NCBI GenBank assembly: GCA_014237975.1
Contig: JABACA010000012.1
Span: 1-32,379, forward strand
Reading direction: 5' to 3'
Source: Mariniblastus sp.
GTDB lineage: Bacteria; Planctomycetota; Planctomycetia; Pirellulales; Pirellulaceae
DNA: 32,379 nucleotides
Below, piece after piece: positions 2,289 to 27,112 of this stretch. Position 1 is the first letter of the stretch; the number at the start of each line of letters is the position of its first letter. The notes beneath the pieces are model-generated. The model did not search any database. It was given only the letters and a program-made list of their open reading frames with translations, and was not told where the DNA came from. The position numbers were made by a program, and so were the translations under genes.

Positions 2289-4583
2289 TTACATCGGTGT
2301 CTGTAGCAAGGATTGTGCGAACGGATTATCCTGGGCACCTTTTTGACGAGCGGGCTTCTTGTTTTGGTAATCCGTGAGTCGTTTTTGGGCTGCCTGGGCA
2401 TCGGCGGTTCCTGGTCGGTAAAGGCGTAGCGCGGACGTCTGAATTCGCGATGCCATTTCGAAATCCCCTAACTGGGCCAGAGCCGCAGCAACCACCTGTC
2501 GCGACAAGGGATCATTGGCCCGGTTCGATTGCAGCATGTCTTTAACGAACGGTCGGAGCGCGTCCTTCTTTTGCAGTGCAGGAACGCTCGAAGTGGAGTA
2601 GATCCACATCGTTTTTAGCGCAAGCAAGGGCGACGGTTGGACCTGTTGGTAGAGGGAGACTGCCTCTTCCGGTTTGCCGGCAAAGAAATGCGTATCCGCC
2701 AGGCGGGTTTGGATCAACGGATTGGAGCGGTTCTTGAGAAATGCCTCGCAAAGCACCTTGGATTCATCGTAGCGCCCGCTGTGGATTAATAGTCCGGAAA
2801 GTTCCGCCACCAGCGTTTCATCGTCGGGAGATTGTGAGACGGCAGTTTGCAAACGCTGGATCGCGGGGGCCAGCTTGCCTTGGCTGGCCAACAGTTTGGC
2901 CGCGGCTAACTGGGATTCCCATTTAGTGGGAGCGAGTTTACTGGCAAAATCGAACCATTTAATGGCGTTATCAACCTCGCCTTGGCGTGCCAATACGAAA
3001 CCGAGACCGAAATTGGCATCGAAATTATCCGGTTCATATTTGACCGCCTGGCGATAATGGTGTTCCGCCAGTTTAAAGTATTGAACTGCGTTGGGGCCAC
3101 GGTCCTGTTGGGCCGCCTTGCTGATGATATCGGCCAAATTCAAATGGGCGGGAGCATAGGTCGGGTCGTACTTAATCGCCGCCAACAGCGAACCGTTAGC
3201 GGAATTGAAATCGTTGGCCATGATGCTCTTGACCGCATTGGCGTATTCAAGTCTTGCTTTTTCAGGACCCGCATGTCCGTCGTAAAAGGCGGCATCCGCT
3301 GGGTAGCCTTGATCGGCGAACAAGCTTTTTAAACGGAGGTCATTGGCGGTTCTCGGTTTGGATGTCCAACTCTGGCTGAAGGGCGTGATCAGATTTCGCA
3401 ATTCGTCTTGGGGCGACGCCAGTCGTTGAATATCCTGCCGTAGTTGCTCAAGCCCTACTTTTCCCTGGTAAACCACCCGGAGCTGGCCTGCGGAATCGAT
3501 CAGGAAACTGGTGGGAATGGGGTAAGGTTGTTGCACATCGTAAAAGGCGCCCCGCAGAATGGACATTTTCTCAATCCAGTCCTGGTCGGCCGTTCCCCAC
3601 TCGAACGGGAACTTCAATTTGTCGGCCACCCATTTAGCGTCTTCCAACGTGGTGTCCTGGTTGGGCAACCCGTCCGTCGTGAGGGCAATCACGCGGATCC
3701 CCAGCTCGGTAAACTGATTGTAATTTTCCGAAAACTCTTTCAATTCAACCTTGCACGGCTCGCACCAACTAGCCCATAAATTCAGCAATGTGAATTGGGT
3801 TGCATCGTTTGCCGTCGCCAGGTCAATCCGGGAATGGGTGCCATCATGGTTTTTCATTTCCGTGATCGGCATCCTGATAGGCGGTACGACATAAGTCGCA
3901 ACGGCGGTGCGCTCCGGAAAAGCCAGCGGGCCCGCCTGTAAATCCGTTTGTTCGGGGCGAACCAACGTTTTGACCAAAGGTGCTTCGTCGGTTTGTTCAA
4001 TGGAGTAGTGTTGGTCCATTGCCAGATTGGCCAGGTTGCTCTGAGAACCATCCGGCCAGTTGATCTCAACCTTCTCAATTTGTTCGGCTTGGCCCAGGCC
4101 AAACGTGATCCGTTTACTCGATTGACTCAGAAAACCGGAGCCGGCCGCCACGGTCTTGGTTAACCAGTCACCGTCCTTGATTTTGACGCGAATGCGGGCG
4201 CCAATCGCGTCTCGGTTACATAAGGTGCCGGCTAATTTAAACGACACAAAATGGTTTCCCGATTGGATGTCGTTTCGCAAGAAACGAAACATCGGGGCGT
4301 TCCGGTTGGTCAACAGGAAGTCGACGTCACCATCGAGGTCCCAGTCGGACAGCGCCAAACCGCGACCATCTTCGAGATAGTCCAAGCCGGTAATGGACGA
4401 AACATTGGCAAACGACAGTTGGCCCAGATTGAGAAAAGCGCAATTCCGTTCCTGTCCACTGAAGGAACGGCCAACCCGCATCTCGTGGTCAAACAACTCG
4501 TGTTGTTCCCGCATCCGGTCAATGTCTGATTGCTTGTTGGAGTCACCCGTTGAATTCGGCAAAACTTGCCGCCAGAAAAGACT
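2289..4583 (-). other. Segment after the UGA: UnbV/ASPIC, TlpA-like thioredoxin and TPR domains
   Basis: The part after the TGA begins SLFWRQVLPNS and continues with ERNCAFLNLG, a further FG-GAP-like loop (LSDWDLDGDVD) and the UnbV/ASPIC domain (NHFVSFKLAGTLCNRDAIGA, then VEINWPDGSQSN). A TlpA/ResA-like thioredoxin domain follows, with LNLWASWCEPC and the cis-Pro element YPIPTSFLID. The C-terminal 300 residues are TPRs (ANFGLGFVLARQGEVDNAIKWF and similar). An isolated protein starting here would lack a signal peptide, although every domain in it is of a kind expected outside the cytoplasm. That supports translation as one chain with the anchored N-terminal segment. Confidence 0.8.
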
Positions 4584-6485
4584 TCATAAATCATCGGCAA
4601 TTTTGCGGGTCAGAAATCCGTTAGGAACAACGATGTCGTCCCATCCGTCATTATTCATGTCGACAAACTTGGATCCCCACGCCCAGCGTCCCATGAACAC
4701 ATTGGCCGATCCTCCAATATCGTCAAACCCGTTTTCCGCGCCAAGGAAAAGCGAATTTCCACGGGCCATGTATTGCATCCGGTTCTGTAGCTCCGGTCGG
4801 CGGCTCAGGTAGTTGTCCTGGAAACTGACCCGATTGCCAGCTGTCGAATACATGTTGGAGATATAAAGATCCATCCGGCCGTCGTGGTTGATATCAGCCC
4901 AGTCGACTGACATTCCAAACGACTGGTCTTCGATTTCCAATTCTGCCGCTCGATTGCGAAATTTGCCATTTTCAAACTCGTAGAAACAATTTCGACCATA
5001 ATCATTGGCAACGTACAAATCCTGATCACCATCGTTATCAAAATCCTGCCAGCCGGCGGCATAGCTGTATTTTTGGTTGTCGGCATTCAAACCGACTTGT
5101 TCCGTCGCATCGACAAACTGGAAATTTCCATCGTTTCGCAACAACGTATTGGGACCACCGCTGTTTGAGTCATGCATGGGAAAGGCGAAGGGAAATCGGC
5201 GACCTTCGGCACGTTTGTCATAGTACCCACATACATAGACGTCCAGGTCTCCGTCATTGTCGAAATCCGCGCTGCACATCGAGTAGGGATCCTGGATGTC
5301 CGGATATTTTGATTTAAGCACAAAACGGGACCCGTTGTTTTCGTATACCAACAATCCATTGGCTGCACCCACCACCAGGTCCTGTTTTGAATCGTTGTTG
5401 AGGTCAATCAACAACGAGCTGCGGGTGTGGTCCGATAGGTCGATATTCCATTCGGCTGAGGAATCCTTGGTGGTCCCATTTGGTTGTTGGATTAATAATC
5501 GGTTAGGTAAACCAAATGGTTGGCAAAGATAAATGTCATCCAGCCCGTCGCTGTTGACATCACCCACGCAAATCCCGTTGTATCCAAAGACGCCGTGGTC
5601 GGCGATTTTTGCGGCCCACTGGTCGGCGCCCTGGCCAAACTGCTCGATCAACTGGGGGTCATGGTCAAACAGACTGGCGGTATAATCTTCGAACCCAACC
5701 GGGTTACTGCCGGTATACGTTGCGCATTCATAATCAGTAATCCTGATGGACTCGATCAAGGGATAACGGGAGTCAGCCTGTGGCGCCCAGGTGATGTCCA
5801 GGGTGGCATTGAACTCGCCGCTTTGCAGGTTTGAATTCAATGCGAAAAAACTGGCCAATACACCCGTGTGGATTTTGTCCTGGTCCCTTTCAATTCGAAA
5901 AATCTTGAATTTCGACCTCAATCTGGATTCACCCGAGTCTCCCACGATCGGGTCGAAAACGGATTTCATAAAGGCTGTAAAATCAACCTTCGGTGATGCG
6001 TCGTCATTCGGGTCGATGGTTGCTGCAGTACCAGCCACATCATCCATCTCCACCAAGCGACGGGCGGTGATCTTCGATGCGGCTTCTGCTGGAGAGCGGA
6101 ACACTGTTTCGAGGTGCGTTGCGTCCAAGGGGGCTGCCGAGAAACCTGACACGGCGAATTGACCGACCTGGTCCGGTTTCAAACCGGTCGCGTTCGCGTA
6201 TTTTTCACTCAGTTTTTTCAGTCGTCCCGTCAGAGTCGCCTGAACCTCTTCAATATCTGCCAACTGATCAAAATCGGTGTCACTGGTGTCCGGATCCGTT
6301 TCACCGACAGGTTCCTTCTTGACGTTTTCGACATTTTTTCCCGGACCTTGGCCGTCATCTCTTGTCACCGGTTTCCAGAAGAAATAGCTGGCACACGCGA
6401 TGATCAGCACCGCCGCGACAAGTAGTGTGACCGGCCAAAACGAAGAGGATTCCGGTTGGTGCGGTCTAGATGAATTGGCAGCCAT
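2289..6485 (-). CDS. Probable selenoprotein: membrane-anchored CRTAC1/UnbV-thioredoxin-TPR protein with in-frame UGA
   Basis: Two adjacent open stretches on the minus strand lie in the same frame and are separated by a single TGA at 4586-4584. Read through, they give 1398 residues with residue 634 at the TGA, in the context DDL-U-SLFWRQV. The order is: TM anchor (about 17-40), N-terminal domain, FG-GAP/VCBS propeller (about 290-620), residue 634, UnbV/ASPIC domain (about 740-830), TlpA-like thioredoxin domain with WCEPC (Cys908 and Cys911), and TPRs (about 1070-1380). The downstream part has no Shine-Dalgarno and no ATG near its beginning; its first possible start is a TTG seven codons after the TGA. 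A GUU-loop hairpin lies 12 nt after the TGA, as in a bacterial SECIS. The start chosen is the ATG at 6485, 5 nt after AGGGA. The rest of the frame is open. Alternatives are a recent nonsense mutation, a sequencing error, or two polypeptides. No sel genes lie in the window. Confidence 0.74.
4557..4571 (-). promoter_or_regulatory. SECIS-like stem-loop just after the in-frame UGA
   Basis: On the mRNA strand, 12 nt after the UGA, CGGCAA pairs perfectly with UUGCCG across a GUU triloop. The first loop G is 19 nt after the UGA. Bacterial SECIS elements recognised by SelB are small hairpins inside the coding region, with a loop G (usually followed by U) roughly 16-37 nt downstream of the UGA, so both position and loop fit. 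I see no bulged U and no extended lower stem as in E. coli fdhF. A 6-bp stem can occur by chance, so its support comes from location. Confidence 0.6.
4584..6485 (-). other. Segment before the UGA: TM anchor and FG-GAP/VCBS propeller
   Basis: This 633-codon part would be annotated as a separate CRTAC1-family gene if the TGA were taken as a stop. It starts with a single membrane helix (FWPVTLLVAAVLIIACASYFF), so the rest should face the periplasm. Repeated Ca-binding-like DxDxDGxxD loops occur at VGDVNSDGLDD, DLNNDSKQD, ADFDNDGDLD, QDFDNDGDQD, ADINHDGRMD and VDMNNDGWDD, giving at least six blades. The sequence ends NGFLTRKIADDL immediately before the TGA. That is mid-domain, because CRTAC1 proteins normally continue from the last FG-GAP repeat into the UnbV domain. 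Confidence 0.8.
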
Positions 6486-6923: not shown

Positions 6924-7778
6924 CTAACTGACCAGGCTGCGCAGTTTTTCCAGGTTCATTTCATCCATGTCTTTACCGTCGATCTCACCCTTCTCCGTTT
7001 CCAGGTACATCGGTATGTGGGAGAAACGCGGATCATTTAACAACAATCGAAACGGCTCGTCACCCATTTCGCCCTGTCCAATATGCTCATGACGGTCTTT
7101 CTTGGACGCGAAAGGTCTTTTGCTGTCGTTCAGGTGGATCGCTTTTATGTTATTAATACCAAACGTCGATTCCATTTGGTGAATCGTTGTTTCGTAGTCT
7201 TGCTCATTTGCCAAAGAATAACCGGCCGCAAACGTGTGGCAGGTATCAATACAGACGCCCAGCCGTTCCGGTTGGTTGACCTGCTCGATAATGTAACTTA
7301 GTTGTCCGAATTCGAAGCCCAGATTCGATCCTTGACCAGCGGTATTTTCAAGTAACGGGAAAGTTGTCAAATCGGATGTTCGCTGCAAAACAATGGCCAG
7401 TGAGTTGGCAATGGTAGCCAGCCCTTCCTCGGGCGTGCTTGTCGTATGGCTGCCCGGATGGAAAACGACATAGGGAATCCCCAGCCGATCTGCCCGCTGC
7501 AATTCATCCACCAGTGCATCGATGCTTTTTTCTAACAACTCGTCTTTGTTGCTTGCCAGATTAATCAGATAGGATGCATGGGACAGCGTGTGTTGTATAT
7601 CGCGTTGGTCTAGAGACGATTGAAACTTGTCACAGTCCTCGTCCGTCAAAACAGTGCCTTTCCAGCGGTTGTTGTTCTTGGTAAATACCTGGACGCAATC
7701 GCAATCGACCTTGCTCGCCGCTTCCACTGCTTTCCAGTAGCCGCCCGCGACGGACATGTGAGCTCCGAGAATTGGCAA
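6924..7778 (-). CDS. nfo: Endonuclease IV (deoxyribonuclease IV, AP endonuclease)
   Basis: This Zn-dependent TIM-barrel enzyme cleaves 5' to abasic sites in base excision repair. Visible family blocks are ILGAHMSVAGG at the start, VFHPGSH, LLENTAGQG, CIDTCHTFAAGYS, HLNDSKRPFASKKDRHEHIG and the terminal YLETEKGE; together these carry the metal-binding His, Glu and Asp residues. The reading frame extends to a TTG at 7859. I chose the TTG at 7778 because AGGAG lies 9 nt upstream, the product then has 284 residues (E. coli Nfo has 285), and the N-terminus aligns with the family. The gene stands alone, with large gaps on both sides. Confidence 0.93.
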   Translation of the reverse strand: MPILGAHMSVAGGYWKAVEAASKVDCDCVQVFTKNNNRWKGTVLTDEDCDKFQSSLDQRDIQHTLSHASYLINLASNKDELLEKSIDALVDELQRADRLGIPYVVFHPGSHTTSTPEEGLATIANSLAIVLQRTSDLTTFPLLENTAGQGSNLGFEFGQLSYIIEQVNQPERLGVCIDTCHTFAAGYSLANEQDYETTIHQMESTFGINNIKAIHLNDSKRPFASKKDRHEHIGQGEMGDEPFRLLLNDPRFSHIPMYLETEKGEIDGKDMDEMNLEKLRSLVS

Positions 7779-8271
7779 GGGACCGTTCTCCTGTTTCCGA
7801 GTTCTCGCCAACCGTGTGTTACTGGCCAGTCGAGGGGGATGGAAATCTGCAGGAATCAACCCCGCAGGAAAAAACAGAAAACATAATAACGCGATGAGAA
7901 GGATTTAGACAGTCGGCACGGGCGTTTCGGGTTGAAGTGCCAGTTCATAGCGCGTGATGCGAAACGGCTCGAGGTGACCATCTGTTGGTAAGTGAGGGGA
8001 ATGGAAAAGGCGGCTGGTAAATAGTAGGATAATTTTTCGATTGCTGGAGGGTCCATGTCAGATGAGTTTGCAGGACCTGGAACTAGAGGCTGGCCAAGAC
8101 CTGGTCATCTTCATTCTGGAAGGCAATCGGAACACCGAGCGGGCACACAGATGTTACCGAGTGGAAATTTTGGGTGCCGTTGAACCGTTAACTTTTGGAC
8201 TATTATTGTGTGATCGGAAGTGTCGGGCCTGTTAGCCTGCACACGACCCTTCAAAACCAGGATAGATACTT
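7779..8271. other. Intergenic region between nfo and the HlyD-like gene (divergent)
   Basis: This region of about 490 bp between divergent genes must hold both promoters. A plus-strand frame from the ATG at 8062 to 8235 (57 codons, MSLQDLELEAGQ...) has GGAGG 11 nt upstream, and an overlapping frame from 8055 has the same GGAGG 4 nt upstream. Neither resembles a known protein, so I leave them uncalled. No RNA gene is recognised. Confidence 0.4.
8180..8206 (+). promoter_or_regulatory. Possible sigma-70 promoter of the HlyD-like gene
   Basis: TTGAAC (8180-8185) and TATTAT (8201-8206) are separated by 15 bp, which is shorter than the ideal 17. They lie about 65 bp before the ATG at 8272. Similarity is the only support. 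Confidence 0.25.
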
Positions 8272-13063: not shown

Positions 13064-14545
13064 TTAATTTTGCTTCTTTTCCCGCCGTTTTTGCTTGAGC
13101 AATTTGTCTCGCCGTTTCTTTTCTTTGGCTCTTTGTTTGGGAGAAAGTCGTTTACCGGTCGATTTCTTGGTTTTTGGCATTCGACTGGTAGGATCCAGCA
13201 TCTTTTGTTGCAAATCCTGCATCATTTGCATCCGGTCACCCATCCCCTTGCCGGCCATACCGGTCAAAAGGGGTTTCATCGTGTCGTATTGTTTGATTAG
13301 CTCATTGACCTGTTGCGGCTTGACGCCAGCTCCCTGGGCGATTCGCTGGCGGCGACTTACCTCGATCACTTTCGGGTCTTGCCGCTCGTTGGGGGTCATG
13401 GAATCAATGATCCCCACCATCCGACGAATCTCTCCCGAAGTGTCTCCTTCGTTCATCATTTTGTTGATATCCGAGGAGCTGGGCATTCCAGGCATCAGGC
13501 CCATCATTTTTTGCATCAAACCAGGTTTGGCCATTTTTTGCATATGATTGCGGAAATCGTCCAGCGTAAACTGTCCTTTTTCCAGCTGTTCCTGCATCCG
13601 TTCCTGTTCTTTTTGATCGACAATTCCCTGTACCTGGTCGACCAATGCCAGCACGTCCCCCATCCCCAGGATGCGATTGGACATACCTTCCGGGCGAAAA
13701 AATTCGAGATCCTCGAGATGTTCGCCGGTACCGATGAACCGAATCGGCACACCCGTCACATGCTTTACCGACAGCAATGCACCGCCACGGGCGTCGCCAT
13801 CGAGTTTGGTCATCACGACACCATTAAGTTCCAGCGATTCGTGGAAGGACTTGGCGCTGTTAACGGCGTCTTGTCCCGTCATCCCATCGACGACCAGGAA
13901 CACCTGGTCGGGACTGACTTGGCGATCGATCGTTTGCAGCTGACCCATCAATTCTTCGTCGATTGCTAATCGACCGGCCGTATCGAGGATAACGACCTTG
14001 CATTCTTCCTTGCGGGCTTTGGCCACAGCGTTGTTGCAAACCTTGACGGGATCCTGTTCACCCGGCTCGCTATAGACGGGTACGCCGACGGATTCTCCAA
14101 TGATGTGCAATTGTTCAATGGCAGCCGGTCGCTGCAAATCGGCGGCGACAAGCATGGGTGAAATATCCCGTTGCTTCAGAAGCTTGGCCAGTTTTCCGCA
14201 GGTGGTGGTTTTACCGGAACCCTGCAGACCACACATCATGAAGATGTTAACGCCTTCTTTCAGCTGTAGCCCTTCTTCGACGGGTCCCAAAAGGTTGATT
14301 AATTCCTGGTGAACGATGCCAACCAGTTGTTCACTTGGCCGCAAAGAAAGAAGGACTTTTTCACCGAGCGCCTGCTGGCTTACCTGGTTCATAAAGTCCT
14401 TGACTGCGTCATAGCTGACGTCCGCGTCGAGTAACGATTTTTCCACCAAATCCAAACCGTCGCGCATATTGCGCTCGGTTAATTTCCCTTTACCCCGTAT
14501 CGATTTAAATGCGGACTGGAGGCCGTCCTGCAGTGAACCAAACAT
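13064..14545 (-). CDS. ffh: Signal recognition particle protein Ffh (SRP54)
   Basis: Ffh binds 4.5S RNA and nascent signal peptides and delivers ribosomes to FtsY. Visible are the N domain (about 1-90), the G domain with GLQGSGKTTTCGKLA (P-loop), DTAGRLAIDEELM, TKLDGDARGGA and the FIGTGEHLEDLEFF closing block, and a Met-rich M domain (MQKMAKPGLMQKMMGLMPGMP, MGDRMQMMQDLQQKM). The last 30 residues are a Lys/Arg-rich tail. At 493 residues it is slightly longer than the 453 of E. coli. The first gene of the conserved ffh-rpsP-trmD-rplS order, it lies 227 nt after the thioredoxin gene. The SRP RNA gene is not in the window. Confidence 0.97.
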   Translation of the reverse strand: MFGSLQDGLQSAFKSIRGKGKLTERNMRDGLDLVEKSLLDADVSYDAVKDFMNQVSQQALGEKVLLSLRPSEQLVGIVHQELINLLGPVEEGLQLKEGVNIFMMCGLQGSGKTTTCGKLAKLLKQRDISPMLVAADLQRPAAIEQLHIIGESVGVPVYSEPGEQDPVKVCNNAVAKARKEECKVVILDTAGRLAIDEELMGQLQTIDRQVSPDQVFLVVDGMTGQDAVNSAKSFHESLELNGVVMTKLDGDARGGALLSVKHVTGVPIRFIGTGEHLEDLEFFRPEGMSNRILGMGDVLALVDQVQGIVDQKEQERMQEQLEKGQFTLDDFRNHMQKMAKPGLMQKMMGLMPGMPSSSDINKMMNEGDTSGEIRRMVGIIDSMTPNERQDPKVIEVSRRQRIAQGAGVKPQQVNELIKQYDTMKPLLTGMAGKGMGDRMQMMQDLQQKMLDPTSRMPKTKKSTGKRLSPKQRAKEKKRRDKLLKQKRREKKQN

Positions 14546-15642: not shown

Positions 15643-17316
15643 TCAGGATATCAACTTCTTGTATCGGAATCGGGGAACCTCATCTTCGCGGATTCCCAGC
15701 CGTTCTCGTCGCTGCTGTTCATAGGTTTGGTAATTGCCTTCGCACCAATGCACGTATCCATCATTTTCAAAAGCGAGAATATGGGTGGCAATCCGGTCCA
15801 GGAACCAACGATCGTGACTGGTGACGACCACGCAGCCAACGTAATTTACAATCGCTTCCTCCAACGCCCGCAACGTGTCAACGTCCAGGTCGTTGGTTGG
15901 TTCGTCCAATAATAAAACGTTGCTACCCCTCCGCAACAGCTTGGCGAGATGCACCCGGTTGCGTTCTCCGCCGGACAGGTCGCCTACCTTTTTCTGTTGA
16001 TCGGGACCACGAAAATTGAAACGAGAGACGTAGGCCCGCGCATCGACTTTTCGTTTGCCCAGCTCCAACGTCTCGTGGCCGCCGGAGATTTCTTCAAAAA
16101 CGGTGCTTTCCGGGGTCAATGAATCGCGACTTTGGTCCACGTAACCGAGCTCGACGGTGGCGCCAATTTTCAACGTCCCGGCATCCGGCTGCTCCTCGCC
16201 GGTGATCATTCGAAACAAGGTTGTTTTGCCAGCTCCGTTGGGACCAATAATGCCAACAATTCCACCGGGGGGTAAACGAAATGTCATGTTATCCATCAGA
16301 ATGCGGTCGCCGAACCCTTTCCGCAAAGCATCCGCCTCGATGACCAAATCTCCTAAATGAGCTCCGGGCGGAATTTGGATTTCGAGTTCCTGTTCCTGTT
16401 CTCGGTCGGCTTGCGCCGCCATCTGTTCGTAGGAACTGATTCTCGCTTTGCTCTTGGCCTGCCGAGCGCGAGGAGCCATTCGAATCCATTCCATTTCGCG
16501 TTGTAATGTCTTTTGGCGAGATTCGCTCTGCTTTTTGTCGATCGCCAAACGAGCCTGTTTCTGTTCTAGCCAGGAAGTGTAATTCCCTTCGAAAGGGTAG
16601 CCCTCTCCACGATCAAGTTCCAGAATCCACCCTGCCACGTTGTCCAAAAAATAACGGTCGTGGGTTACCGCGACGACGGTCCCATGATACTGATGCAACG
16701 ATCGCTCGAGCCACTGAACGGAGTCCGCGTCCAAATGGTTGGTGGGTTCATCCAGCAGCAGCAAATCAGGTTTTTCGAGTAGCAACTGGCAGAGGGCGAT
16801 GCGTCGGCGTTCGCCACCGGATAATTGCTCGACCGAAGCTTCCTTGTCCGGCAGGTTCATGACCTGAAAGGCGACTTCAATTTCGCGGTCCAATTCCCAT
16901 GTATTGGTTGCTTCGATTTCATCCTGCACCCTGGCCATCTCGGCATATATTTTTTCCATCGCCGCATCATCCAGCGGCTCGGCACATTGAGCGGACAGCT
17001 CGTTGTACCGGTCCAGCAGCGCGCGGCGTGGCGCGACGGCCGTCATGACGTTGTCCCAGACGTTTTTACTGGGATCCAACTGGGGTTCCTGCGGCAGGTA
17101 GCCACACGTAAAACCGTCCGTCAAACGGGCTTCGCCATCATATTCCTGGTCCAAACCGGCCATGATCTTCAGCAAGGTGCTTTTGCCGGTGCCGTTTTTT
17201 CCCAGTACGCCAATCTTGGCACCCGGATAAAAAGACAACCATATTTCGTTCAAGATGGTTTTGGTTCCAAACTTTTTTGTAAGCTTGGCCATGGTGAAAA
17301 TGTATTGTTTGCTCAT
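15643..17316 (-). CDS. ettA: Energy-dependent translational throttle protein EttA (ABC-F)
   Basis: EttA binds the ribosomal E site and gates the first peptide bond according to ATP/ADP ratio. The 557 residues (E. coli 555) contain two ABC domains: [20 protein letters not shown] and [12 protein letters not shown] in the first, then [21 protein letters not shown] and [12 protein letters not shown] in the second. Between them is the PtIM linker with [20 protein letters not shown], typical of the EttA subgroup rather than Uup or YheS. There are no membrane segments. It leads the minus-strand translation/targeting block. A 7-bp hairpin (17425-17443) lies about 110 nt upstream. Confidence 0.95.
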
Positions 17317-20945: not shown

Positions 20946-21779
20946 ATGAAAATTCTTTTGACCAATGATGACGGCATCCATTCCGGCGGCATTATCGAAC
21001 TGGCCCGCAAGCTGACATCGGTGGGAAACGAAGTATTTGTGGTGGCACCGCGGACCGAGCAGAGTGGTATCAGTTCGGCCATCACTTTTTTAAGACCCTT
21101 GTTCCCGGTGACGTTGGGAAGTTCGACCGAGTCGGGCGATGAAATGCAGGGGTTCTCGGTTGATGGGACGCCGGCCGACTGCACCAAGTTGGCGCTGTTT
21201 GAGTTGTGTCCGTTCCAGCCGGACCTGGTCATCAGTGGTATCAACGGTGGTTTGAACGCGGGCACCAACGTCGGTTATTCAGGAACGGTTGGCGGTGCAT
21301 TGGTGGCGGCCACTTTCAACATTCCCGCGATGGCGATCAGCCTCGAATTTTCATCGGAAATGGATTTCCGCGGCGCGTCCGAGATTGCCTGTCCACTGGT
21401 TGAGCAATATCACATGGTCGACTGGCCGGACCGGACTGTTCTGAACATCAATCTTCCCACCAGAGCGTTGAAAGGGGGGGCGGAAGTTGCCGTTGTTCCA
21501 GTCGAAGTGAATCCATTGGGTTACACCTTTGACCGCGGGCATGATCCTAAAGGCAGGCCCTATTTCTGGTCCAATAATAAACCGGATCCACAACCGTCTC
21601 CTTTTGAAACGGATACGCAAGCGTTGAAGGCGGGTAAAATTACGATTTCGCCCGTCAGTTTCGATTTGAACGTCGCTTCCGCCATGCCTCGACTGCGGGA
21701 GATCAATCGCCTGGCGGCTGTCAATCGTCTGGCGGCTGTCGAAACCGAGGGGGAACCGATCGAGGGCACGGCAGAATGA
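20946..21779 (+). CDS. surE: 5'/3'-nucleotidase SurE
   Basis: SurE is a metal-dependent phosphatase that removes phosphate from nucleoside 5'- and 3'-monophosphates and some polyphosphates. The metal site is visible as TNDDG (residues 6-10) and SGINGG with a following SGTVGGA loop; VVAPRTEQSGISSAI is the other conserved block. The 277 residues are slightly long because of a C-terminal tail with an 18-bp tandem duplication (see repeat). The stop overlaps the next start as ATGA, so translation is probably coupled to the MogA/MoaB-type gene. Confidence 0.95.
   Translation: MKILLTNDDGIHSGGIIELARKLTSVGNEVFVVAPRTEQSGISSAITFLRPLFPVTLGSSTESGDEMQGFSVDGTPADCTKLALFELCPFQPDLVISGINGGLNAGTNVGYSGTVGGALVAATFNIPAMAISLEFSSEMDFRGASEIACPLVEQYHMVDWPDRTVLNINLPTRALKGGAEVAVVPVEVNPLGYTFDRGHDPKGRPYFWSNNKPDPQPSPFETDTQALKAGKITISPVSFDLNVASAMPRLREINRLAAVNRLAAVETEGEPIEGTAE
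21703..21738 (+). repeat. 18-bp tandem duplication inside surE
   Basis: TCAATCGCCTGGCGGCTG (21703-21720) is followed directly by the same 18 bp with one C-to-T change (21721-21738). It encodes the doubled NRLAAV near the SurE C-terminus and keeps the frame. Confidence 0.85.
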
Positions 21780-22318
21780 GCGCATCTTCGGTGGCAAAGT
21801 TTGGTGTGATTACTGTCTCGGATCGGGCCAGTGCGGGCGTCTACACGGATCGCGGGGGACCGGCCATCGAGGCCTACCTGTCAGAGGTGGTTACCACCAA
21901 TTTCCAGATGGAAAGTCGAGTGATTCCGGATGAGATGGAGACGATCCGGGATACGATCATCGAGTTGGCGGATATTCACCAATGTTGTTTGATCGTGACG
22001 ACCGGTGGCACGGGCCCCGCCGAGCGCGACGTGACGCCGGAGGCGACCGAGATGGCTTGTCAAAAAATGATGCCCGGATTTGGGGAACAGATGCGGGCCG
22101 TTTCCCTGCAACATGTGCCGACCGCCATTCTCTCGCGGCAAACGGCCGGGATTCGCAATGGCAGCCTGGTGATCAACCTGCCCGGCAACCCGAAGGCGAT
22201 CGCCGAGTGCCTGGACGCCGTTTTCCCTGCGATTCCCTATTGTATAGATTTGATCGAGGGACCTTTCGTGGAAACGAATGAAACCCGGTTCAAGGTATTC
22301 CGGCCGAAACAGAAATGA
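21776..22318 (+). CDS. mog: MogA/MoaB-type molybdopterin adenylyltransferase
   Basis: This 180-residue protein belongs to the family that adenylylates molybdopterin before molybdenum insertion. It has FGVITVSDRASAGVYTDRGG at the N-terminus, LIVTTGGTGPAERDVTPEAT (the MPT-binding GGTG loop and the conserved Asp), and GSLVINLPGNPKAIAECL. MogA and MoaB cannot be separated safely here; the start VSDRASxGxYxDxxGP fits MogA. It overlaps surE by 4 nt and the following membrane-protein gene by 4 nt. No molybdoenzyme is in the window. Confidence 0.88.
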   Translation: MSASSVAKFGVITVSDRASAGVYTDRGGPAIEAYLSEVVTTNFQMESRVIPDEMETIRDTIIELADIHQCCLIVTTGGTGPAERDVTPEATEMACQKMMPGFGEQMRAVSLQHVPTAILSRQTAGIRNGSLVINLPGNPKAIAECLDAVFPAIPYCIDLIEGPFVETNETRFKVFRPKQK

Positions 22319-23277
22319 TGCTGAGTCAATCGAATCGCTACCGACACCTGGCCTGGATTGTGTTGGTGTTTCTGGTCGTTTGGTCGGCCGTTTATACGGG
22401 CAGTTGTTTTTATCCACTCGATATTTACGCCAATCAATCGATTTATCTCGGCCCGGTTTTGTTTGTCACCATGATCGGCCTGGTGATGAGTTTTCTCCAG
22501 TTGGTCGGCCTCTGGCTGGTGTTCGGTCCGGGAACATACCTGGTTCGTATCCTGTTTACCGTGTTGGCCTGCCTGGCCGGGATGGGAGTGATGTGGATCG
22601 CCATGCACCTGTCCAACTTGGGCGCCTATAATAATTCAGCTTTCAGCCCTGCCGTGAACGGGTTATTCAAGGATGTCGTGTTATGGTTCCCGTTCTTTTT
22701 CCTGCTGCTGCAGCTGCCCAGTGCTCTGGTTCGGTTTATGTTCAGGTGGCAAATCAATTGGGGTGATACACCGCCCCCAAAACGGCCGTTGGCGATATCC
22801 GATTTGCTGACGATCACCACCTTGATTGCCGCAGCAACGGCCAGCCGTTCGTGGATCAATTTCGACGATCTTGAAAGTATTAATTCAGTTATGGCGACAG
22901 GAATTTTTTGGTTGCCGGTGTTGATCCTGTTCGTACTCCCGATCGTTTATTTCACAATGACGCCCTGGTCAGGGACCTGGGGGATTCCGGGGTGGAAAGG
23001 TACAGGTCTGGCGGTTTATGTAGGACTGGTGCTGCTGAGCCTGTTCATTTTTGCCGCGGGTTTTATCGGTTGGTCGCAGTCCATTTACGTTGCCAGCCTG
23101 GTGTTCCCATTCGTGTTTAGTTTGTGGCTTAGCCTGTGGATCAGCCGGCGGACCGGGTTTCGCCTCTGGACCCGTTGGTCGAGGCGGGCGTTTGAGTGGG
23201 AGCATGAAGCAGAAAACAGCGACGCCCAGGAGAAGGTCTCGCCGGTCGACCCACTCGAACTGGGTGACCTGGCCTGA
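22315..23277 (+). CDS. Polytopic membrane protein of unknown function
   Basis: This 320-residue protein has about seven hydrophobic helices: around residues 11-30, 45-70, 77-100, 120-145, 195-215, 225-250 and 255-280. Before the fifth lies a soluble loop containing WGDTPPPKRPLAISDLL. The C-terminal 35 residues are charged. No transporter motif is recognised. The ATG overlaps the mog stop as ATGA, so it is likely translated with it. It may be linked functionally to its neighbours, but nothing in the sequence shows how. Confidence 0.75.
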   Translation: MMLSQSNRYRHLAWIVLVFLVVWSAVYTGSCFYPLDIYANQSIYLGPVLFVTMIGLVMSFLQLVGLWLVFGPGTYLVRILFTVLACLAGMGVMWIAMHLSNLGAYNNSAFSPAVNGLFKDVVLWFPFFFLLLQLPSALVRFMFRWQINWGDTPPPKRPLAISDLLTITTLIAAATASRSWINFDDLESINSVMATGIFWLPVLILFVLPIVYFTMTPWSGTWGIPGWKGTGLAVYVGLVLLSLFIFAAGFIGWSQSIYVASLVFPFVFSLWLSLWISRRTGFRLWTRWSRRAFEWEHEAENSDAQEKVSPVDPLELGDLA

Positions 23278-23313
23278 TACGTTGGGTGGGCGAATTGCAA
23301 TCAGGGAGATCCG

Positions 23314-23838
23314 ATGGGACGGAATGTAGAAATCAAGGCCCGCTTGAGGGAAGCTGATTGGAAACGGGTCTGGCAATGGGCGGAACAAAATACGACCGAG
23401 CCACATGCGGTCCTGGTCCAGACCGATACGTTTTTCAATACGGAGACGGATCGATTGAAGCTGCGGCAGTTTGCCGATGGTTCGGCCGAGCTGATCGGCT
23501 ACACCCGCAGCGATCAACAGCGACCGACCGAATCGGACTACGTCCGGACCCCAATCCCGCAACCTGACGAGTTTCTCCAGGCGATGCGGTCGACCGTCGG
23601 CATCCGTGGAGTGGTTAGCAAACAGCGTGACCTGTTCATGGTCGGGCCGACCAGGATTCACCTCGACCAGGTTGCCGACCTCGGTTCCTTCCTGGAACTG
23701 GAAGTCGTGTTGCAGCCGGAGCAAACCTTTGAACAGGGCCAGGAGGTCGCCGATATGTTGATGGCCGAATTGGGAATCGGAGCCGAGCATTTGGTATCCC
23801 ACGCTTACATCGATTTGCTGGAAGCAAGGGAAGCTTGA
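23314..23838 (+). CDS. CYTH-domain protein (class IV adenylate cyclase / thiamine triphosphatase-like)
   Basis: The 174-residue protein starts NVEIKARL, the metal-binding ExExK-like first strand of the CYTH tunnel fold. It continues with QTDTFFNTETDRLKLRQF, the basic strand, and RDLFMVGPTRIHLDQVADLGSFLELEVVL, the acidic return strand typical of class IV adenylate cyclases (CyaB). These enzymes bind triphosphates within a beta tunnel, and the actual substrate (ATP, thiamine triphosphate, inorganic triphosphate) cannot be told from sequence. GGGAG lies 5 nt before the ATG. It follows the membrane gene by 36 nt on the same strand. Confidence 0.82.
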   Translation: MGRNVEIKARLREADWKRVWQWAEQNTTEPHAVLVQTDTFFNTETDRLKLRQFADGSAELIGYTRSDQQRPTESDYVRTPIPQPDEFLQAMRSTVGIRGVVSKQRDLFMVGPTRIHLDQVADLGSFLELEVVLQPEQTFEQGQEVADMLMAELGIGAEHLVSHAYIDLLEAREA

Positions 23839-25261: not shown

Positions 25262-26428
25262 TCAAACAGGTTGTGAATCGACCATCGCCATGAAAATCTT
25301 GAACAGGTATTGACTGTCATGCGGCCCGGCGGATGCTTCCGGGTGATATTGAACACTGAACGCCGGCAAGCGAGTGTGTCGCAAACCGGCAATCGTGTTG
25401 TCATTCAGGTTGCGATGCGTGACGACCAGGTCCTCTGGCAAGCCTTCGTCGGCAACGGCAAAGCCATGGTTTTGAGAGGTGATTTCAACACGCCCCGTCT
25501 CTTCGTTCAAGACCGGGTGGTTGGCTCCGCGGTGGCCAAATTTGAGCTTGAAAGTCGTGGCACCACATGCTTGAGCAAACAGTTGATGGCCAAGACAGAT
25601 GCCGAAAATAGGAGCCTTTCCCAACAACGCTTGAATGGTCTGAATCGCGTAGGTTAGCGGTTCGGGATCGCCCGGTCCGTTGGACAGGAAAATGCCATCG
25701 GGCTGTTCGGCCAAAACCTCGTCGGCCGTTGCCGTACCGGGAAGAATGGTGACTCGACATCCGAGATTGTATAGATGGCGAGCAATGTTACGTTTCATGC
25801 CGTAATCCAAAGCCACCAGGTGGATTTCATCGGCGGAACTTGACGGGCGATCGACCGGGCCCTTGATGTCCCACCAACGACTCAGATTCTCACACCAATC
25901 GACAGGCTGATCGGGGAGCACTCGTCGAACCAGATCGGTACCTACCAGCGACTCACTTTGTCGCGCTTTTTCAACCAGGCTGGTATCGTCCAGATCTTCT
26001 GTTGAAATAACCCCTCGCATCGCTCCGCGATCGCGAATACGGCGAACCAGTTTTCGAGTGTCGATGTTAGAGATGCCAATGATGTTGTGCTTGATCAGGT
26101 ATTGATCGAGACTACCTGAAGATCTGAAATTGCTGGCGACTGGACTTGGGTTTCGGACGATGAATCCGGCCAAATGGGGACGAATACTTTCGATGTCTTC
26201 CTCGTTGACTCCGTAATTCCCAATTTCGGGATAAGTCATTGTAACGATTTGGCCGCAGTAACTTGGGTCAGTCAGGATCTCCTGATACCCGGTCATCGAA
26301 GTATTAAAGACGACTTCGCCAAAAGTGGTTCCGCTGGCCCCAAAAGCTTGACCAGTAAAAACCGTTCCATCTTCCAGTGCCAATTTGGCCAATCGCTGTT
26401 GAGTTTCGTCGAACATCGTTTTTTCCAT
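25262..26428 (-). CDS. carA: Carbamoyl-phosphate synthase small subunit (glutaminase)
   Basis: CarA hydrolyses glutamine and passes ammonia to CarB to make carbamoyl phosphate for pyrimidine and arginine synthesis. The N-terminal domain starts ALEDGTVFTGQAFG and has VFNTSMTGYQEILTDPSY. The class-I amidotransferase has FGICLGHQLFAQACG with the catalytic Cys, and the triad His and Glu in SVQYHPEAS. The frame is open to 26551, but the 41 extra residues do not match the family. I chose the ATG at 26428 (388 residues; E. coli 382); an ATG at 26416 is also possible. carB is not adjacent in the window. A strong hairpin lies about 260 nt upstream. Confidence 0.95.
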   Translation of the reverse strand: MEKTMFDETQQRLAKLALEDGTVFTGQAFGASGTTFGEVVFNTSMTGYQEILTDPSYCGQIVTMTYPEIGNYGVNEEDIESIRPHLAGFIVRNPSPVASNFRSSGSLDQYLIKHNIIGISNIDTRKLVRRIRDRGAMRGVISTEDLDDTSLVEKARQSESLVGTDLVRRVLPDQPVDWCENLSRWWDIKGPVDRPSSSADEIHLVALDYGMKRNIARHLYNLGCRVTILPGTATADEVLAEQPDGIFLSNGPGDPEPLTYAIQTIQALLGKAPIFGICLGHQLFAQACGATTFKLKFGHRGANHPVLNEETGRVEITSQNHGFAVADEGLPEDLVVTHRNLNDNTIAGLRHTRLPAFSVQYHPEASAGPHDSQYLFKIFMAMVDSQPV

Positions 26429-27112
26429 GGAAATGGGCCTGCCTGTGGATTGATCAACGGTTTTAGCGGGGGAGATCGCTGTGAACCCCCATAAAATATC
26501 TATCCGACCCATAAATTCAAGTGGCTCTGCGGGCCCAAATTGTCGCCCCAACGACTTTGCCAGTTATAACGCCTAGTCCCATAATTAATAGCTGCTAAAG
26601 CAATCGCGTTAACGGGTCGATACGTTCCAATGGCTGTGGGTCTCCGAAACTGGGATTTTGTCCCTTATCGGACAGCCAACGAATGAAGGGTTTTTGCCGC
26701 GGCGAGCAAGAACCCTTCCCTTTTGCGCTGAACGAAACAAATTGATTTCCAACCCTTGTCGTTTTTCTTGATGTTGCCTGGTTTTACCCAATCGTTGCAG
26801 GCGATTAACGATCGCAGCGCGGTGCGTCCAGTTACATCTTCCACGACCGGTGAACGGCCATTTCCGCCGGGTCGGGGATGCTCTGGTTGAGTCCCCGGGT
26901 AGGATCGGCAAACGCACCAATTCCCCCCCATAAACGATCTTTTACTGTGAGATAGGTGACTCTGGCATGGTGGTGGAAGGATTTGTGAGATTCTAATGGA
27001 TTGACTTTCAACCGGTAACTAATCACCCTTAAGATGGACGGGTTACCAAGCGGTTCAGAGCAACCGGTATCTCGGTGGAATCGAGCAATCAGTTTTGGTC
27101 AAGTTGAGTTGA
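26429..27112. other. Intergenic region between carA and a PEP-CTERM gene (divergent)
   Basis: These 680 bp hold both promoters and the hairpin at 26686-26717. CAACCGGTA occurs twice (27009 and 27061), 52 bp apart, upstream of the plus-strand gene. A 103-codon minus frame (26920-26609) is Arg-rich and without a start signal, and I do not call it. Confidence 0.4.
26686..26717. promoter_or_regulatory. Strong hairpin in the carA upstream region
   Basis: AAGGGTT-TTTGC (26686-26697) pairs with GCAAG-AACCCTT (26706-26717) across an 8-nt loop, giving 12 pairs with one wobble. It lies about 260 nt before carA. It may be a leader structure or a terminator of an unseen transcript; CCCTTTT follows on the plus strand. 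Confidence 0.45.

Follow-up and report, generated by a model that had tools for sequence, protein, structure and literature searches.

The window analysed here, a stretch of 32,379 nucleotides from Mariniblastus sp. (Planctomycetota; assembly GCA_014237975.1, contig JABACA010000012.1, positions 1 to 32,379), raises the question of how a TGA in the middle of a long minus-strand reading frame is decoded. An earlier model-made note, the sequence-only reading, had proposed that this TGA encodes selenocysteine (Sec). Comparison with related genes makes it very probable that the gene does encode a selenoprotein, in which SelB and a selenocysteine insertion sequence (SECIS) hairpin would insert Sec at residue 634 of one 1398-residue CRTAC1/UnbV-thioredoxin-TPR protein. 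The features concerned are these:

2289..6485, minus strand: predicted selenoprotein gene (1398 residues, number 634 being Sec); ATG at 6485, TAA at 2291-2289; orthologues L021 and L022; purifying selection on either side of the TGA.
4584..4586, minus strand: predicted Sec codon 634, an in-frame TGA in the motif DL-U-SLFWRQV; TGA also at this column in paralogues, Mariniblastus metagenome-assembled genomes (MAGs) and phylum matches.

When recomputed, the frame from 6485 to 2289 proved to be as first described, with 633 codons, the TGA (4586-4584), 764 codons in the same frame and the TAA, and no other interruption; the sequence around the TGA reads IADDL*SLFWRQVLPNS. The frame stays open for 14 codons upstream of ATG 6485 (647 residues before the TGA), and by eye this ATG has only a partial ribosome-binding site, AGGGA. 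Two long neighbouring open reading frames (ORFs) in one frame are, taken alone, weak evidence. The window holds a second such same-frame pair at 22315-23838 on the plus strand, with a TGA at 23275, which is likelier to be two ordinary genes, since an ATG at 23314 can start the second ORF.

The presence of a stop in the frame, together with that other pair, would fit a TGA that truly terminates translation, be it in a pseudogene, through a sequencing error or between two separately translated proteins. This explanation is extremely improbable given the following. FG-GAP repeats precede the TGA, the UnbV_ASPIC domain follows it and orthologues align across it, so that the interrupted frame was taken as a real single gene, and the upstream half indeed stops in the middle of a CRTAC1 protein, as the sequence-only reading had it. 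The orthologues, from two Mariniblastus MAGs, show 61-74% identity on each side (L021 is partly masked, and L022 ends 388 codons past the TGA). Against L022, the nonsynonymous divergence (dN) is 0.21 before the TGA and 0.18 after, the corresponding synonymous values (dS), close to saturation, being ~2.7 and ~3.1. For the comparison with L021, the uncorrected proportions are 0.22 and 0.25 for pN and 0.83 and 0.80 for pS. On these comparisons both halves of the gene, each an intact frame, are under purifying selection. The downstream half starts inside the aligned region of the family, and no clear ribosome-binding site was seen by eye at the first ATG, GTG or TTG codons past the TGA, in line with the earlier statement that this half has none.

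Conservation of the TGA also speaks against a real stop. The own genome contains four paralogues, each with one TGA at the aligned column (KDL*TVFWRQV, GDL*SFWWRQV, VDL*SDFWRMV and TDL*SCLWRAV), and three relatives of the wider family (L014, L015, L018) without a Sec-type motif. A 145-residue profile (alignment A1) was searched over 392 Planctomycetota genomes, 142 of which matched at E <= 1e-8. Counted by hand, TGA occurs in 129 of the best 150 matches (three times in one of them); the other 21 are free of stops, and neither TAA nor TAG was seen. For the window's family, 68 of 241 genomes matched at E <= 1e-15, and all the matches listed (39 genomes) carry TGA. Among the genes fetched for one alignment set, 78 distinct ones share the same TGA column. 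Conserved TGA and purifying selection thus led to rejection of the pseudogene and two-gene options. The DLxSFFWRQV-like segment that the sequence-only reading had ascribed to relatives turned out to be a real family motif in the aligned homologues. Outside Planctomycetota the comparison covers Bacteroidetes and related loci only, and none of 42 pattern-matching stretches on viral contigs codes for a relative. One locus, L121 (G020:C78:23300-26800), has three in-frame TGAs and a frame that ends 20 codons past the Sec column; it may contain more than one Sec or have decayed.

A conserved TGA could still be read as something other than Sec, either by reassignment to Trp or Cys or by programmed read-through with a near-cognate tRNA, and residue 634 is assigned from sequence alone, which leaves room for such a reading. 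We nevertheless hold it to be very unlikely. TGA ends 10 of 16 hand-picked ORFs of the window, so UGA serves there as an ordinary stop, and reassignment was rejected on this ground. The genome (assembly of 5.0 Mb in 404 contigs, 94.8% complete) has all four genes that were to be looked for: tRNA-Sec (selC, 70.2 bits, confirmed by ARAGORN with anticodon tca), selB (271 bits, at a contig end), selA (576 bits) and selD (266.5 bits), the last three each above the curated cut-off. Across the phylum, selB (E <= 1e-60) is found in 236 of the 392 genomes and in 61 of the 66 with TGA among the matches listed, the remaining five being assemblies 55-89% complete. When the 32 profile-positive, selB-negative genomes were searched again, TGA matches appeared in those five plus G061 and G146, and tRNA-Sec exceeded the cut-off in 7/7 of them, as compared with 3/25 of those without a TGA match. 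Altogether, selB or tRNA-Sec accompanies the TGA in 68/68 genomes identified in the phylum sample. The window's family gives a similar picture, with tRNA-Sec in 37 of the 39 genomes with TGA among the matches listed versus 116 of 241 overall, and in 62 of 68 profile-positive genomes versus 54 of the remaining 173 (p = 4e-18 by Fisher's test, kinship ignored). One genome, G305 (64% complete), has three tRNA-Sec-like genes over the cut-off.

The residues found at the column also speak against a non-Sec reading, since Cys occupies it in 14 fetched homologues and Trp in no fetched homologue; alignment across the TGA thus gave TGA or Cys, the outcome that had been proposed as supporting Sec. The Cys forms belong to a remoter clade; on the tree, where five of them were placed, it also includes L156, which has Asp. 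Five Cys loci, with the motif DYC[TS]x[FY]W, come from genomes in which neither selB nor tRNA-Sec was detected. All 21 no-stop rows of the phylum search (20 fetched plus L067) were read, yielding Glu 6, Ala 4, Asn 4, Gln 3, Arg 2, Asp 1 and His 1; L023, a named MAG locus, has Ala also.

The third line of evidence is a hairpin immediately downstream of the codon:

4557..4571, minus strand: SECIS-type hairpin CGGCAA-GTT-TTGCCG, beginning 15 nt downstream of the U of the UGA; the apical loop starts 18 nt past the UGA and contains G-U.

Stem, loop and spacing of the window hairpin fit, in register, and its energy is borderline. Covariation and synonymous-shuffle tests were made because this energy is not decisive. 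In a gap-free alignment from the TGA, bases 15-31 pair as a stem whose sides covary (for example CGACA/TGTCG, CGCCA/TGGCG, CGACG/CGTCG, CGTCA/TGACG and CGAGA/TCTCG) around a loop with G-U. A first set of 73 TGA genes (of 76, a length and N filter having dropped L013, L064 and L073) has all five core pairs in 62 genes, whereas 1000 synonymous shuffles average 6.4 and never exceed 14 of 73, and 0/22 non-TGA genes have the pairs; sliding the partner by 1-3 bases leaves at most 8 complete, and 6/73 genes fit with the 3' side moved by one base. In a second set, made up of 34 from a further 35 TGA genes, the pairs are complete in 31. With both registers taken together, the stem is complete in 99/107 TGA genes, and in either register in 0/14 Cys genes and 0/23 genes with another residue (L156 included). 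This specificity for TGA genes is a further argument against a non-Sec reading. The loop G-U is less discriminating, with G in 19/22 and U in 22/22 non-TGA genes; it may be kept because of the conserved Val. The full published SECIS criteria as coded, energy included, are passed by 78/107 TGA genes (60 synonymous shuffles: mean 11.6, maximum 18), by 0/14 Cys genes and, at scattered positions, by 6/23 genes with another residue. The assignment of Sec to residue 634 is thus supported by the Sec machinery, by TGA or Cys at the column and by a UGA-specific, covarying hairpin.

Concerning the protein itself, translation through the TGA would give the following order of segments, in which the named domains exceed Pfam cut-offs:

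6375..6440, minus strand: hydrophobic N-terminal segment, FWPVTLLVAAVLIIACASYFFW; putative signal anchor, judged by its sequence.
4566..5588, minus strand: FG-GAP-type beta-propeller repeats, residues ~300-640 (Pfam; AlphaFold model; PDB match CRTAC1 9etn).
4830..4859, minus strand: SNMYSTAGNR segment including Ser547, conserved in homologues.
4005..4208, minus strand: UnbV_ASPIC (PF07593) domain, residues 760-827 (Pfam).
3474..3866, minus strand: AhpC-TSA / TlpA-ResA-like thioredoxin-like domain, residues 874-1004 (Pfam).
3753..3767, minus strand: WCEPC motif (CxxC), residues 907-911 (sequence).
2637..3260, minus strand: TPR repeats, residues ~1076-1283 (Pfam, NCBIfam).

The Pfam scores are 111.6 bits for PF13517 and 73.5 bits for PF07593, both above the curated cut-off, and 55 bits for PF00578; no NCBIfam ResA, DsbE or TlpA model exceeds its cut-off for the thioredoxin-like domain. 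Residue 634 precedes the UnbV domain. An AlphaFold model of residues 240-840, with 12 sequences as input (mean predicted local distance difference test, pLDDT, 73.3; predicted template modelling score 0.79), has murine CRTAC1 (PDB 9etn) as its best fold match (template modelling scores 0.66/0.72, E 7e-27), and the sequence match to CRTAC1 has E 2.7e-18. As modelled, the protein has a CRTAC1-like propeller fold. It is probably membrane-anchored and exported, judging from its N-terminus. Two positions track Sec and are candidates for the Sec site: Ser547, kept in 77/77 Sec, 5/5 Cys and 14/23 other homologues, and Gln788, kept in 67/75, 5/5 and 7/23, respectively.

What Sec would do on a propeller is suggested by the domain fused behind it. 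In the first set 69 of 78 Sec proteins are long-tailed, and 68 of these 69 contain a CxxC; in the later set 34/35 do, the exception ending 188 residues past Sec. These 102 CxxC motifs lie 229-298 residues after Sec. By eye, none of 15 long-tailed proteins with another residue has a CxxC at the homologous site (a regular expression finds one in L096, 345 residues past the column). In a quick tree of 103 sequences, from which the residues beside Sec were left out and in which L096 was scored as lacking CxxC, the Sec label needs 6 changes, and in three independent pairs on supported branches Sec and CxxC differ in the same way under nearly all pairings. Loss of Sec therefore seems to go with loss of CxxC, which suggests that the CxxC domain serves Sec; this joint loss had not been foreseen by the sequence-only reading. 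In the window protein the three residues on either side of Sec include no Cys; 2/113 Sec proteins have one that close (L013, L153), neither forming UxxC or CxxU. Since the window protein lacks a UxxC or CxxU partner, and Sec and CxxC vanish together, we infer that the selenol is reset by the protein's own CxxC.

The mechanism that we propose is as follows. SelB with Sec-tRNA(UCA), guided by the SECIS hairpin, would insert Sec at residue 634, within a DL-U-S-x-x-W-R-x-V loop carried by the propeller and followed by the TlpA/ResA-like thioredoxin domain and then the TPRs. On the propeller the selenol would act as a redox-active (or metal-binding) site, and the CxxC in the thioredoxin-like domain of the same chain would reduce or resolve it on the outer side of the membrane.

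Several observations weigh against this account. With regard to Sec insertion, the TGA genomes G507 (88% complete) and G510 (83%) have no detected tRNA-Sec. Failures of the full published SECIS criteria as coded amount to 29/107 TGA genes, and the window hairpin reaches -6.2 kcal/mol alone and -7.5 in a 40-nt fold, values equalled by dinucleotide shuffles of the stretch. Cys is found in none of the 22 close non-Sec relatives fetched (Glu 6, Ala 5, Asn 4, Gln 3, Arg 2, Asp 1, His 1), which sit among Sec sequences on the tree; such residues in place of Cys were not foreseen by the sequence-only reading. Nor is Cys confined to genomes without Sec, as 9/14 Cys copies (DYC or DHC) lie in five genomes with TGA copies of their own. 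With regard to the thioredoxin-like domain, one long-tailed Sec protein, L116, lacks CxxC; Pfam detects AhpC-TSA in only 4/6 Sec proteins (and in 0/2 non-Sec proteins); the fused domain is missing from some of the Sec proteins and from all 14 with Cys; and the link between Sec and CxxC amounts to only three independent pairs (sign test p 0.25-0.5). Finally, the Sec loop has a pLDDT near 40 in the model, so no loop geometry or catalytic residues were placed.

The missing fused domains are also what one would expect if Sec were a structural residue or metal ligand working without the thioredoxin domain. The Asp-rich repeats are conserved, and repeats of a similar kind bind calcium elsewhere. The structure matches moreover include a propeller-containing enzyme, 4a7y, with an active-site metal in its title. 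We regard this alternative, which would equally make the protein a selenoprotein, as possible and yet rather unlikely: 15/15 long-tailed non-Sec proteins lack CxxC at its site, and the independent pairs, though few, agree. On balance we favour, with modest confidence, the planctomycete CRTAC1/UnbV propeller as a new selenoenzyme scaffold, exported, with its active site in a loop Sec and not in a thioredoxin-fold motif, served by a same-chain thioredoxin-like domain, and expanded in single genomes to about two dozen Sec paralogues, which may account for a large share of the selenium need of these bacteria. That Sec and CxxC are lost together offers a concrete handle on the function of the protein. 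A related group of loci (L087-L098, L101, L023 and L067) has Glu, Ala, Gln or Asp at the column, with the propeller motif kept and long tails without CxxC at its site; these are apparent pseudo-enzymes, many in genomes with Sec copies too.

The copy numbers were obtained by searching five relatives again, with 135 to 150 candidates scored each. TGA copies number at least 24 of 26 matches in G438, at least 24 of 25 in G453 (82% complete, 7% contaminated), at least 15 of 17 in G437, 10 of 12 in G456 and 8 of 10 in G452, the counts being lower bounds for four of the five. All nine no-stop copies among them are Cys forms. In G438, G453 and G437, which belong to the window's family, the counts amount to a large expansion of one predicted selenoprotein family.

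Compared with known systems, the window family shares the FG-GAP repeats and UnbV_ASPIC domain, and its top fold match, with CRTAC1 / ASPIC-UnbV proteins (PF07593; murine CRTAC1, 9etn), and adds the DLUSxxWRxV loop with Sec, the mRNA hairpin and the C-terminal thioredoxin-like domain with TPRs; the Bacteroidetes relatives fetched lack the Sec-loop motif. It resembles bacterial SelB/SECIS-dependent selenoproteins in its UGA, Sec machinery, Cys homologues and a hairpin whose loop, 16-37 nt past the UGA, has G-U, but lacks their common UxxC or CxxU motif. With TlpA/ResA-like thiol-disulfide oxidoreductases it has in common the WCEPC of the C-terminal part and ResA model matches below cut-off; in Sec forms such as NF041054 the motif is WAxxUGC, whereas here Sec belongs to the propeller and the CxxC of the thioredoxin-like domain is an ordinary one. 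In the window protein the match to NF041054 falls in the TPRs, outside the thioredoxin-like domain.

The family is apparently a large, widespread and undescribed planctomycete selenoprotein family, built on a propeller scaffold. Among the 119 prokaryotic selenoprotein families tabulated in a 2026 review (PMC13188914), none bears the name of CRTAC1, UnbV or FG-GAP or is attributed to them. No NCBIfam model exceeds its cut-off, and the terms planctomycet, CRTAC, FG-GAP, VCBS and propeller are all absent from the deep-Sep paper (PMC12013277). In the open-licence literature (RefSeq being outside the scope), selenoprotein or selenocysteine together with UnbV or FG-GAP gave nothing, and with CRTAC1 or VCBS gave off-topic papers only; nor does a family of this kind appear in the titles and opening lines of abstracts that were listed. 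The sole planctomycete paper found with a selenoprotein section is PMC4807772; its supplementary candidate table may list a family member. Bacterial CRTAC1/UnbV proteins can be expected to be mis-annotated, because standard gene calling would split such genes at the TGA.

As for the surroundings, Pfam matches at 1e-5 are absent in 5 of the 10 neighbouring ORFs checked. The others are a xylose-isomerase-like TIM barrel (6924-7859, minus strand), SRP54 (13064-14545, minus), an ABC transporter-type ATPase (15643-17316, minus), SurE (20946-21779, plus) and the carbamoyl-phosphate synthase small chain (25262-26551, minus).

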